From an uncultured Poribacteria bacterium (GTDB lineage Bacteria > Poribacteria > WGA-4E > WGA-3G): DNA of 64,000 nucleotides. The notes beneath the pieces were generated by a model. It saw only the letters and a list, made by a program, of their open reading frames with translations. It was not told the origin of the DNA and made no database searches. Made by a program: the position numbers and the translations under genes. This document shows, one piece after another, positions 945 to 62,306 of the stretch. The stretch lies in assembly GCA_951828515.1 (NCBI GenBank), contig OX639992.1:434001-498000 (forward strand). The letters are read 5' to 3'. Numbering within the stretch: position 1 is the stretch's first letter; every line of letters starts with the position of its first letter.

Positions 945-1868
945 TTACCACACTTTTAGGTTGTCATAATAGATTTCAGTTGCGGAGTAGCCGTAGATAC
1001 CGGGGCTTCCCTCGCGATTTGGAAGTGGGTCTTCGGCAGTAATCGTCCATTCTTCGGGTTCAGGTTCAGCAGTTCGCCAGACCTTTCCTCGAATTATTGC
1101 TTTACCCTCCATAACCTCTACTGTCATTTTCATTGTATACCAGACATCCGTCTGCCAAGCGAAGTCGATTGTCTTCGCCATGCGTAAATCGGATGCCCAT
1201 GAACGGATCTGCAAGCGTTGGTGTCTGCCCTGCATATCCAATGTGTAGCGGTTGGCAATTAAGCCCATGTCTGGTAGTCTGCGTTTATTTTTGGTTCCCA
1301 TCAAGTCGATTTGAATCTGATAGTCTTTCATTGTTGAGGGACCGAGATAGACGTTGGACCGGTTTAAGCCGCGTTGGACAGGCGTTTTTATTAAGACTTT
1401 ACCGCCATCCTTTTCACGGACAAAGAATTTGCCGGTCGCACCGATCCAGTGCGTGGGTATTTTTTCGAGTTCAATTGTTTCAAAGTCCTCTGTCCATGGG
1501 AGTGATGGAATTACGCGGACACGCGCCGTCGCTTCCATATCGCCGGATTGAGCGGTCACCGTGCCTGCATGCGCTCCTGCGCTTTTATCGGGTGTAAATG
1601 TGCCATCTTCAAATGCTCCAGTTAAGCCGGTGGATGCCCATTCTATAGCCCCGATTGCACGCGTCTGTTTTCCATCTGCATCGAAAGCGATGACGCTCAA
1701 CGCAACGGGATCGCCTGATGTGAGTGTTTCTGCGGGGGTAAGCAGCAGCGAAACAGCAGGCGCGGTTGACATTTCCATCGGCTCTGGTGCCATCTCTTTA
1801 CTGGCACAACCGGCAGCGAGGATGCACACCATCAGGATAACGTAAAGTGGGATAAAATTTTTCATCAA
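945..1868 (-). CDS. lipoprotein with Ig-like and concanavalin-like domains
   Basis: 307 residues. The N-terminus has a lipoprotein signal peptide with lipobox LAAGC (Cys21), so it should be anchored in a membrane facing the periplasm or outside. Residues about 35-120 look like a bacterial Ig-like domain (a run of alternating strands with the SGDPVALSVIAFDADGK type motif). Residues about 125-307 resemble the jelly-roll domain often found behind PQQ propellers, ending in EIYYDNLKVW. Its ATG overlaps the stop of the upstream propeller gene by four bases (ATGA at 1865-1868), so the two are translationally coupled. A role beside the propeller in binding an extracellular substrate is inference. Confidence 0.75.
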   Translation of the reverse strand: MMKNFIPLYVILMVCILAAGCASKEMAPEPMEMSTAPAVSLLLTPAETLTSGDPVALSVIAFDADGKQTRAIGAIEWASTGLTGAFEDGTFTPDKSAGAHAGTVTAQSGDMEATARVRVIPSLPWTEDFETIELEKIPTHWIGATGKFFVREKDGGKVLIKTPVQRGLNRSNVYLGPSTMKDYQIQIDLMGTKNKRRLPDMGLIANRYTLDMQGRHQRLQIRSWASDLRMAKTIDFAWQTDVWYTMKMTVEVMEGKAIIRGKVWRTAEPEPEEWTITAEDPLPNREGSPGIYGYSATEIYYDNLKVW

Positions 1869-3184
1869 TCGTTCCTCCCAATACAGTAGAGGTGTTCCTC
1901 TGTCGTGAAATAGACACGTCCGTCTGCAATCGCGGGTGAGCCGAAGATTTCGACGTAATGATCTTCCGCAGCTCGGCTTATCTCCTGAGCACTTAGCAGT
2001 TCACATCCATCCTCATTGGGTTGAAGGATCGCAAATACGCCGTTGACTTCCGCGACGTAGAGTTTACCATCCGCCCAGACAGGGGAACCTTTTCCGACTT
2101 TGCCGATGTTGTGTTCCCAGTAGACTTCACCGGTGTCAGCATTGACAGCGTGAATATTCGCGGAGTTATCTACAACATAAAGGTGTCCGGCGTGAATTGT
2201 AGGGGACGCGTATCCAATGTTAACCCCATCATATCGCCAGACTTCATGGGTTTGGGTAACATCTCCAGTACCGGTTGCGTCAATACAGACGACCCGTCCC
2301 ATCGTGGTAGTATCCATATTCTCTTCGCTATGCGTCGCATAGACTTTCGTGCCTGAAACGATGACGGACGTATTGATACCCCGCTGACTGAGTTTAAATC
2401 CCCAGACCCTCTCTCCGGTGTTCTGTTTCATTGCGTAGATACCGCCATCCGCATTGCCGCCGATGATGAGTTGCTGTCCGTTGATATTCACAACGACGGG
2501 TGTGGAGTAAGTCGTGTCTAAGGGTCTGCCGCCCGGTGTTGAAACCCAAATCAGTTCGCCAGTGTGTTTGTCGAAAGCAAAATAGCGGTGACGTGTAGCG
2601 ACTTGAGCACCCCATCCTGAGTTGAGATAACTAATCACGACGAGGTCGCCTGCGATAATAGGGGTGTGAACGCGTCCTCCATAACCGGATATCCGCCCAT
2701 ATTCTTCTGTGAGTGAACGCGACCAGAGGATGTCTCCATCTTTGTCGAAACAGAAGAAGAGCCCTTGGACCCCGTGTGCATAGATATTTCCGGTTTCGAG
2801 ATCGCCAGCGAGACTTGTCCATCCAACTCGATTGAAGGAGATCGTCGTATGAAAGACGTTGAATTGATAATTCCAGATGAGTTCGCCGGTTTCAGCATCG
2901 AAGCAGGCGATACGTTCCTGTTCAGTGATGTCTTTGCCGACACGCCCGATGACGTAGACTCTGTCGTTAAGGACGATCGGTGTAGAACGCCCTATAAATT
3001 CCGCTTGCCAGAGCAGGTTCTCACCTTCAGTCGACCAAGATGAGATGAGTCCTGTTTCGGCAGAGGTGCCGTCCTGATTTGGTCCCCGCCATGTTGGCCA
3101 ATCGCCAGCAATGGCGTGCATAGGAAGCGCAACCAAGGCAAAGCAAATAAGTAGTTGACAAAGACTTGATTTCCAATGGTGCAA
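1865..3184 (-). CDS. secreted PQQ-like beta-propeller protein
   Basis: 439 residues with a signal peptide ending PMHAIAG, then DWPTWRGPNQDG, a motif characteristic of PQQ-propeller proteins of planctomycetes and poribacteria. About seven repeats follow (for example CFDAETGELIWNYQ, AFDKHTGELIWVST, AVNADTGEVYWEHN), each a W-motif blade. The family resembles BamB and quinoprotein dehydrogenases in fold only; no calcium or PQQ catalytic signature is evident. It is the first gene of a three-gene operon with the lipoprotein and a second propeller. It is probably periplasmic or outer-surface; substrate unknown. Confidence 0.85.
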   Translation of the reverse strand: MHHWKSSLCQLLICFALVALPMHAIAGDWPTWRGPNQDGTSAETGLISSWSTEGENLLWQAEFIGRSTPIVLNDRVYVIGRVGKDITEQERIACFDAETGELIWNYQFNVFHTTISFNRVGWTSLAGDLETGNIYAHGVQGLFFCFDKDGDILWSRSLTEEYGRISGYGGRVHTPIIAGDLVVISYLNSGWGAQVATRHRYFAFDKHTGELIWVSTPGGRPLDTTYSTPVVVNINGQQLIIGGNADGGIYAMKQNTGERVWGFKLSQRGINTSVIVSGTKVYATHSEENMDTTTMGRVVCIDATGTGDVTQTHEVWRYDGVNIGYASPTIHAGHLYVVDNSANIHAVNADTGEVYWEHNIGKVGKGSPVWADGKLYVAEVNGVFAILQPNEDGCELLSAQEISRAAEDHYVEIFGSPAIADGRVYFTTEEHLYCIGRND

Positions 3185-3614
3185 ACTTCTGTTCCTCCCG
3201 TGTATTTTACGTGTGTCTGTAACCTTATTAAGACGCTGAAAAATGTCTTAATGTTTAACGTGGCGCGCCTGTTAGAACAGCTCATCGTACTGCACTTATA
3301 AATCTGACAGTGCGCCAGACGGTTTTGTTCTGTATATCTTTCAATATACCATTATACTACATTTGGTGTTTTTGAGAAATGTTTTAAATTGAGGAGTGAT
3401 TGTCAGCCAAATAGCCATCAGCAATGCGCGTCAGAATGCGTCCTTGAAGGCAGATAGCTTTAGTGTTTTGTAAGCGAGGTTTAAGAAATTAAAGGAAAGG
3501 ATGTGTGGTGTGATAGAGTAGGCAACAGGTTACATCAGGTGAAAAAAGGATTTTATCAGATGGTGATATACCCGCAAAGAAGGGATACTGTCCGATAGAA
3601 AAATTTAGGTTTTC
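3185..3614. other. intergenic region with a possible minus-strand promoter
   Basis: No coding frame is convincing here. On the minus strand TATAAT occurs at 3351-3356, about 165 bases before the propeller gene, but no good -35 box lies 16-18 bases upstream, so the promoter call is weak. The part from 3400 to 3614 shows nothing recognisable. Confidence 0.35.
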
Positions 3615-6545: not shown

Positions 6546-6566
6546 ATTTTTAATCTTATACCATTT

Positions 6567-6690
6567 CTGAATGATGATTTCTCTTAAAAGAGTCCATCGT
6601 GTTTGATTATGCCCGGTGCGGTTAGGAAACCGCACCTACCGGATCTGGGTGGACGGTGAGGCTAATGCGATATAAACTATTAGAGATGGT
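6567..6690. repeat. dispersed 120-bp repeat containing a REP hairpin
   Basis: This stretch matches 11795-11860 plus 12611-12690, and so represents the uninterrupted form of a repeat that elsewhere carries a 750-bp insertion. Its centre is the palindrome GGTGCGGTTAGGAAACCGCAC (6615-6636) followed by CTAC. A third relative of the hairpin is at 62219. Confidence 0.7.
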
Positions 6691-6762
6691 ATTACCTTGC
6701 GGAGAAATAACGGACGTTTGGACTTTTAGGTGCGTTGCTTATATCTGAAGAAACACCCAAAG
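6691..6762. repeat. dispersed repeat shared with 27814-27885
   Basis: TACCTTGCGGAGAAATAACG followed about 25 bases later by TATATCTGAAGAAACACCC is found here and again at 27814-27882, where its other strand forms the leader of the Rieske gene. Confidence 0.6.
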
Positions 6763-11761: not shown

Positions 11762-11860
11762 GTTGTCATCTCCGCAATGTTATACCAATTCTAATTGATG
11801 ATTTCTCTTAAAAGAGTCTACCGTCTTTGGTTATGCCCGGTGCGGTTAGGAAACCGCACC

Positions 11861-12610
11861 ATAGGTGTCAATTTAGGGATATTTTACAGCCCTTGGTCGT
11901 CGTCTCGTAGGCTGGGTAGAACGGATGCCACCAAACCCCGTAGGGGTGCTATTGCTTCGCAGTGAGAATAGAAAGCGGCGTATGCCAGCAACCGCACCCC
12001 GTATGAAGTTTAAGAATTTAATCGGGTAATTTCTGAACGGTTTATCAATAGGACAACGACAAGCAGGAAGGTTCGTAGTCGTGCGATTCATCGCACGTCG
12101 TGTGGTCCAAGATTACCCAATTTATTTGTTAATCCTCATTAGGAGTGCTATGTCTATAGAAAACGCATCAAGAAGACTCCATCATCTTGTAAATCCTTGA
12201 ATCCTGTAAATCCTGATTCATACGATGAACACCTACATGTCTCCATAACCAAGTCATCTTTTTCTAAAATTGGCCCCTATGGCTTCAAAACCCACCCCGC
12301 CGCTGACGAGGTTTCTCACCTCGCCTCTTGAGTCTCGTAGGTTGGGTAGAACGGATGCCACCAAACCCGTAAATATCATAGAAAGCGAAGGTCGGTCCAT
12401 ACACGCCCCATTGATCAGAAACCGAGAGAAACCCAACGCTTTCGGCGTCAAGTGCCGGGACCTCTGCGGGTATGACGTTGGGTTTCGCTGGGGTATTGAG
12501 TGGGTATGCCGGCATGTCGTATTTCAGGCGTATTTGGCACCCCTACGTCTTCTTTTTGCGTTCCGCTCTACCCAACCTACGGGACCCGAAACCGCTAAAT
12601 TGACACCTAT
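11861..12610. mobile_element. 750-bp non-autonomous element with 16-bp terminal inverted repeats
   Basis: ATAGGTGTCAATTTAG at 11861-11876 is matched exactly in inverse at 12595-12610. The element interrupts a dispersed repeat whose intact copy is at 6567-6690. The 22-bp REP palindrome stands on both sides (11839-11860 and 12611-12632, one mismatch), like a long target duplication. Inside are no transposase and no believable gene, but further nested repeats (11904-11937, 12336-12582) and a reversed copy of the TATAGACATAGCAC repeat at about 12148-12163. A degenerate left end (TAAGTGTCAATTTAAG) recurs at 23011. Confidence 0.65.
12336..12582. repeat. nested inverted-repeat module, copy 1
   Basis: CGTAGGTTGGGTAGAACGG at 12336-12354 pairs with its near-inverse at 12563-12582. 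Inside lie AGAAACCCAAC (12426) and GTTGGGTTTC (12477), an inner inverted pair. The copy at 23039-23283 has the same architecture. A lone left arm sits at 11904-11937. A frame across this module (12270-12671, plus strand) is not a gene. Confidence 0.6.
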
Positions 12611-12905
12611 GGTGCGGTTAGGAAACCCCACCTACCGGATCTGGGTGGACGGTGAGGCTAATGCGATATAAACTTTTAGAGATGGTATTATTCTTTAATT
12701 TTGGGATATATTGATTTGCGACTGTCTCAATATGTGCTGTCCATTGTCGTAACATACCCAATGGAAAATATCAAGAGAAACCACATCATTCCCCAGAGCC
12801 ATTCAGGTCCAGCAGTGGTGGCAGGGCTTCGCTTCTATTGAAATGTAAACTTATTTTTAGAATTCACCATAAATGGTTCTGATATCCTTCAAGGTTCCCA
12901 TGGAC

Positions 12906-22938: not shown

Positions 22939-23010
22939 AATTGCCTGAAACCCGTTCTTGAAATGTTATAAACCTCTTAGTAGCAACTTGGGTTATAGTA
23001 AAGTAACCCA

Positions 23011-23283
23011 TAAGTGTCAATTTAAGAAAGGAATACGCCGTAGGTTGGGTTGAACGATACTGAAAAGTGTAATGCCAACACCCCAAACACGCTTCAAACG
23101 TGATGCCCCTTGTCCGTCATCAAGAACGCAGTGAAACCCAACTTTATACAGCGACATTTCAAGAAACCACACAGGAAAAGTGTTGGGTTTCACTCGGGAT
23201 ATCTCTGGTGAAGGATGTATGAAGCAACATTGCTTTTCTTTGAGTTGAAGCGTTTTGGCTGCGTCCGTTCAACCCAACCTACG
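23011..23283. repeat. nested inverted-repeat module, copy 2
   Basis: CGTAGGTTGGGTTGAACG at 23039-23056 is inverse to CGTTCAACCCAACCTACG at 23266-23283. Inner pair GTGAAACCCAAC (23131) and GTTGGGTTTCAC (23183). A left end like that of the 750-bp element (TAAGTGTCAATTTAAG, 23011) precedes it. The whole gap 22814-23307 holds no gene. Confidence 0.6.
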
Positions 23284-23307
23284 TGCTGGAAACATGAACA
23301 CCTCTGG

Positions 23308-62185: not shown

Positions 62186-62306
62186 AAGAATTTAATCGGA
62201 TAGTTTTTACCGATACCCGGTGCGGTTAGGAAACCGCACCTACCGGGCCTGGGGGAACATAGAATTACCCAAAAACCCTCATGAAACCGCACCTACCGGG
62301 TTCAGA
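62186..62306. repeat. REP hairpin region behind the aldo/keto reductase gene
   Basis: GGTGCGGTTAGGAAACCGCA + CCTAC at 62219-62244, a second partial copy at 62283-62297, and AAGAATTTAATCGG, which occurs in the 750-bp element at 12012. No gene in 62111-62355. Confidence 0.6.

Follow-up and report, generated by a model that had tools for sequence, protein, structure and literature searches.

A 752-bp non-autonomous element with a 20-bp target duplication in a REP palindrome of a Poribacteria genome, and its probable IS4-family transposase

Introduction

In the genome of a sponge-associated member of the Poribacteria, a short element without a transposase of its own separates two copies of a REP palindrome. 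What moved this element, and why does almost the whole palindrome stand on both of its sides? The locus lies in a 64,000-nt stretch of DNA (the window, positions 434001-498000 of a 5.85-Mb single-contig genome). The length of a target duplication is treated as nearly diagnostic of a family of DDE transposases, since it reads out the spacing of the two active sites on the target DNA.

Results

An earlier note on this DNA described a 750-bp element with perfect 16-bp ends. The ends are indeed exact inverses of each other, but the inserted segment extends from 11860 to 12611 (752 bp) and its ends comprise 17 bp (CATAGGTGTCAATTTAG; Table 1). The element interrupts a repeat of ~130 bp, of which an uninterrupted paralogue is found at 6555-6702. 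Once the element and one duplicate are removed, the flanks align to this paralogue and are identical to it over ~60 bp around the junction, which bears out the earlier claim of a precise insertion into a REP. Elements of this kind also lie in several other copies of the host repeat (143183, 152107/152553, 323829 and 3199221/3199923). Across the genome the host repeat has about 45 matches, full or partial; it possesses imperfect inverse ends (ATACCATTTCT / AGAGATGGTAT) with the REP in the middle. Judging from its sequence, it may itself be a MITE, in which case the insertion would be nested.

Table 1. Coordinates of the element, its target and related features in the window.
Feature	Position	Strand	Remarks
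Non-autonomous element (MITE), 752 bp	11860..12611	none	Perfect inverse ends; near-identical full copies and partial or related copies in the genome
Left terminal inverted repeat, CATAGGTGTCAATTTAG	11860..11876	+	Terminal C invariant (46/46); both ends of the IS have these 17 bp
Right terminal inverted repeat	12595..12611	-	Exact inverse of the left end
Target duplication, left copy, GTGCGGTTAGGAAACCGCAC	11840..11859	+	Within the REP at 11839-11860
Target duplication, right copy, GTGCGGTTAGGAAACCCCAC	12612..12631	+	One mismatch relative to the left copy
Interrupted ~130-bp host repeat, left half	11780..11859	+	91% identity to 6556-6636
Interrupted ~130-bp host repeat, right half	12611..12690	+	Opens with the second target copy; 98% identity to the corresponding part of 6555-6702
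Empty paralogous site	6555..6702	+	One REP, at 6615-6636
Further unoccupied REP palindrome, GGTGCGGTTAGGAAACCGCACC	62219..62240	+	
Degenerate left end of a related element, CATAAGTGTCAATTTAAG	23009..23026	+	

Four whole-length copies of the 752-bp element are present in the genome and they are 99-100% identical. The element is short, bounded by inverted ends shared with an insertion sequence (IS, described below), flanked by a 20-bp target duplication and devoid of a transposase, which are the features of a MITE. It contains no ORF related to the transposase of the IS, and sequence comparison found its interior unrelated to the IS beyond the shared ends. A hidden transposase fragment was also considered and rejected, with matches at chance level only. 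The interior gives the impression of a patchwork of other short repeats. Repeats of the GTAGGTTGGGTAGAACGGA type, some of them inverted, occur in it at 11902-11938, 12332-12368 and 12562-12585, and again at 23035-23300 within the degenerate relative at 23009, whose right end was not seen. The predicted RNA fold of the MITE scores better than shuffled sequences (z = -4.9), and its long inverted ends and internal repeats account for at least part of this score. A structured RNA was rejected, with no match in Rfam.

The earlier note had proposed a genome search for the termini and for a transposase with the same ends, and both were found. With at most one mismatch allowed, the 5.85-Mb genome contains 54 occurrences of the 16-mer ATAGGTGTCAATTTAG (27 per strand; 0 in the reversed control). 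These counts and the 99-100% identity of the four copies exclude a chance origin of the ends. Paired ends delimit many other filled copies, from 259 to 1,467 bp long (distance measured between the 16-bp ends), most of which carry REP duplications on their flanks. One of these elements is an autonomous IS at 1282163-1283631 (1,469 bp including the terminal bases), whose 17-bp ends are identical to those of the MITE. This IS codes for a single ORF of 461 aa with no frameshift, as expected in the IS4 family. No other intact transposase of this kind is present in the genome, where a further copy survives as a remnant of 106 aa. The named relatives with a matching transposase belong to Candidatus Poribacteria.

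The 461-aa transposase matches PF01609 (DDE_Tnp_1; E = 3.5e-23) and scores 189.6 bits against the NCBIfam model IS4_1 (NF033592; cut-off of 115), which its relatives pass likewise. The catalytic residues D141, D213 and E346 are invariant in the alignment and fall within the D(60-110)D(100-150)E spacing of the family. The Y(2)R(3)E(6)K signature is incomplete: R342, E346 and K353 are present and V339 occupies the position of the Y, a residue that some members of the clade do have, namely the relatives in Chlorohelix and Methylobacter. The AlphaFold model (mean pLDDT of 79.9) finds its best solved matches among Tn5 transposases (E = 5.9e-9; TM of about 0.5), and the predicted structure has an RNase H-like DDE fold that lies nearest to that of Tn5 transposase. 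The IS does not belong to the IS1202 family, since its ends read CATAGG rather than TGT and both profile and fold are those of IS4/Tn5 rather than TnsB-like.

The 22-bp duplication matching exactly one REP that the earlier note had read in the window did not hold. The boundary is ambiguous at any single REP because the ends of the element and the edges of the REP both show C/G at the junction. Six genomes supplied 46 paired elements for comparison. In all 46, a C precedes ATAGG and a G follows CCTAT, whereas the partner bases in the target are G in only 39 cases and C in only 36. When both bases are assigned to the element, 24 mismatches between target copies are counted instead of 41. The terminal C/G being invariant while the target partners vary, the element is CATAGG...CCTATG and the duplication measures 19 bp (17 pairs) or 20 bp (29 pairs), outside the one-turn range of the IS4 family (7-13 bp). 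In the window, the flanking G and C that give an apparent 22 bp derive half from the terminal C/G of the element and half from the edge of the REP, and the duplication is of 20 bp (11840-11859 and 12612-12631). Within this genome the duplications follow the length of the REP: 19 bp at 21-nt REPs and 20 bp at 22-nt REPs. In one set of pairs, about 15 of 51 present no clear duplication and probably represent recombined or wrongly paired ends.

Duplications of 19-20 bp are also found at non-palindromic sites (e.g., GGTACCACTACAGAAATAC, GTTTTAATGCTGGGTACCC and GTGCGTATTGCCAGAGTACC), and the target duplication of the IS itself, GTGCAACTTTTCGACCCCC, is not a REP. According to the earlier note, copies lacking REP duplications would refute its reading. 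A minority of copies are of this kind, but their non-REP duplications are just as long, and the case for transposition is the stronger for it. Targets with as few as 1/9 to 3/10 mirror pairs in the inner palindrome still yield 19-20 bp. Constraint in non-REP targets is confined to the outer 3-4 bases (G in 96%, then T/G, then G/T and a weak C) and mirror pairing at the inner stem positions is near chance. Since non-palindromic targets show the same length, the duplication length is a property of the enzyme and not of the REP. From their sequence, REPs appear to be favoured through their edges, GGTGC...GCACC, which fit the target preference of the enzyme. Alternatively, the transposase could read an extruded REP cruciform or hairpin and cut at its foot, the palindrome then setting the length. 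The cut sites do coincide with the palindrome edges and, within REPs, the length follows that of the palindrome (19 vs 20 bp), but the weakly paired targets that keep 19-20 bp and the chance-level inner stems of non-REP targets do not support this explanation, which we consider improbable.

The sole intact transposase sits in an IS with the same ends, and the 752-bp copy is thus taken as a MITE moved in trans. The earlier note, which found no transposase inside the element, had reasoned that an enzyme must act in trans, and the IS4-family transposase very probably plays this role, considering the shared ends, duplication length and targets. A second enzyme would be needed if the IS transposase moved only the IS and the MITEs depended on another transposase with the same ends, lost or unrecognised. 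The interior of the MITE is not derived from the IS and the ends of some subfamilies read ...TTTAA instead of ...TTTAG, as such a division of labour might predict; yet IS and MITEs are alike in ends, duplication length and target preference, and a single transposase with these ends was found in the genome, which makes this scenario quite unlikely.

The distribution of occupied and empty sites was compared across related genomes. At the orthologous locus of the IS, three relatives (G047, G012 and G001) lack the IS and present a single copy of the target. In the genome G017, five REPs are each occupied by one of five near-identical copies of the IS. The duplications are exact in four of them, and in two of these four both sides carry a private base change. 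Such private changes, common to both target copies of single insertions, are seen in GTGCAGTTTCCTAACCGCAC and GTGTGGTTTCTAACCGCAC. Arrays of the form element-REP-element-REP-element were found in G017 (C1:651359-653701; three elements including a full IS, with single REPs between them) and in the genome of the window (G000:323886-324781). The earlier note had attributed the long duplication to REP-directed insertion or recombination; an element exchanged in between REPs at its own ends, with two pre-existing REPs passing for a duplication, would suit the predominance of REP-flanked copies and the few arrays with mismatched REPs on their two sides (323908 and G017:652175), but the equally long duplications of non-REP sequences, the private base changes and the single-copy empty sites of the IS leave recombination with hardly any likelihood. 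The non-REP duplications and these empty sites also rule out the REP as a part of the mobile unit.

We further examined the duplications of other relatives. Short duplications were measured in three Bacteroidota elements (9 bp), ISPa13 (10 bp) and IS421 (11 bp). Long ones are found in a Chlorohelix plasmid element (20 bp, exact; one insertion), a Herpetosiphon plasmid element (about 18-20 bp; one insertion) and the gammaproteobacterium G134 (19 and 21 bp; three copies), where the 21-bp target, GGGCACACGCTTTTTGTGCCC, is palindromic. In the maximum-likelihood tree of the transposases, the long-duplication elements all fall on one side of a branch, with a support of 100/99 when Methylobacter is included and of 95/97 when more sequences are added. 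Long duplications (about 18-21 bp) on this one branch span Poribacteria, Chloroflexota and Pseudomonadota. A single change of duplication length is the simplest reading of this tree, taken as unrooted. Several short-duplication relatives also lie in symmetric palindromes (L117 ~1877-3439, L122 ~1716-3312, L123 ~1750-3338 and L166 ~568-1906), whose centre is the duplicated stretch of 9 or 11 bp, e.g., GGTTC[GTGAGACAC]GAACC. The choice of symmetric targets may be older than the shift in duplication length.

Some relatives depart from this pattern. Two elements of the Poribacteria genome G037 (L109 and L110; transposase 45% identical) possess clear CATAGGCGTC/CATAGGCATC ends and no recognisable target duplication in either copy. 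In the elements of Methylobacter and G082, the flanking target copies are inverted instead of direct, which a stagger of two helical turns leaves unexplained. Inverted flanks of 18-23 bp (e.g., GGGGTTCCTGTCGTCACCCC / GGGGTGACGACAGGAACCCC) were observed at L170 ~1458-2908 (G082), L111 ~1822-3288, L121 ~73-1541 and L127 ~1819-3508. One idea is that recombination between facing inverted ends flips a target copy lying between two neighbouring elements and that one of these elements is then lost.

Discussion

Our results make it very likely that the MITE of the window was moved by an IS4-family transposase with a stagger of about 20 bp, double the usual length, which prefers REPs for their edges and leaves its target copied intact. 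The transposase would pair two CATAGGTGTC... ends and join their 3' ends to both target strands at two points 19-20 bp apart, or roughly two helical turns. Gap repair would then duplicate the intervening 19-20 bp, as in the cut-and-paste reaction of a Tn5-like dimer. Each half of the complex would prefer an inward-facing GGTGC-like edge, and the abundant REP palindromes, GGTGC(GGTT-loop-AACC)GCACC, would be the main hot spots. The duplication would take in the whole REP except its outermost base pair. Because nearly the whole palindrome is covered, each insertion would leave two intact, usable REPs and permit further insertions alongside, a prediction that the element-REP arrays fit. Tn5-like cut-and-paste with a 19-20-bp stagger accounts for every regular case; we infer both the two-turn stagger in a dimeric Tn5-like complex and the role of target preservation in producing tandem arrays.

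We read this system as a two-turn, target-preserving variant of IS4 transposition. More broadly, it is probable that a deep clade of the IS4 family, spanning at least three phyla, shifted its spacing by one turn (from about 9-10 to 19-20 bp) and that palindromic recognition makes insertion target-preserving, such that the transposon multiplies its own targets. The step would amount to about one turn of B-DNA, with the attack points staying on a similar face of the helix. A two-turn clade inside the IS4 family, beside one-turn relatives with similar ends, offers a natural comparison for what sets the spacing. An IS that copies its whole target also changes how REPs and insertions are expected to spread: REPs multiply and arrays are permitted, as in these genomes. 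If this is true, the adjacent insertions to which a REP family gives rise have no limit.

The open-access literature yielded no published 20-bp duplication in the IS4 family, of which ISfinder records may hold some, and no report of this element in Poribacteria. MIC231 and other MITEs of the IS4 family are likewise non-autonomous and have their ends in common with an IS4-family IS, but they differ from the MITE described here in ends, host, cargo and duplication length.

The subgroups of the IS4 family duplicate 7-13 bp, about one helical turn, and the IS701, ISH3 and IS1634 families 4-6 bp; IS1549 and IS1634 are the only ones reported with variable long repeats (De Palmenaer et al. 2008, PMC2266710). 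The IS described here resembles the IS4Sa, IS231 and ISH8 subgroups in its DDE_Tnp_1 domain scoring above the IS4_1 cut-off, its D(71)D(132)E and R(3)E(6)K motifs, its 5'-CAT ends and its size of 1.47 kb, and its targets present inverted G/C edges as do those of IS231; it differs from these subgroups in duplicating 19-20 bp instead of 7-13 bp and in the replacement of the Y of YREK by V (PMC2266710). Lacking both the complete YREK signature and a one-turn duplication, it is best called a variant clade, inside the IS4 family or beside it, and not a standard member. IS1549 and IS1634 (IS1634 family) also combine IS4-related transposases with long duplications, but theirs vary from 8 to 514 bp whereas the length here is fixed at 19-20 bp (cited in PMC2266710). 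The IS1202 group offers a parallel in that one subgroup has unusually long duplications (16-28 bp) when other members have 3-5 bp; however, its transposase is TnsB-like, its ends are TGT and the long-duplication subgroup has no known target (PMC10132070). Finally, ISRm22 (IS4Sa subgroup of the IS4 family) and ISPsy8 share the preference for REP palindromes, but their insertions fall within the palindrome, in most cases on the axis of symmetry, and make repeats of 3 or 6 bp, so that the REP is broken (Tobes and Pareja 2006, PMC1525189). Here, in contrast, insertion takes place at the edges of the REP, which is duplicated whole.
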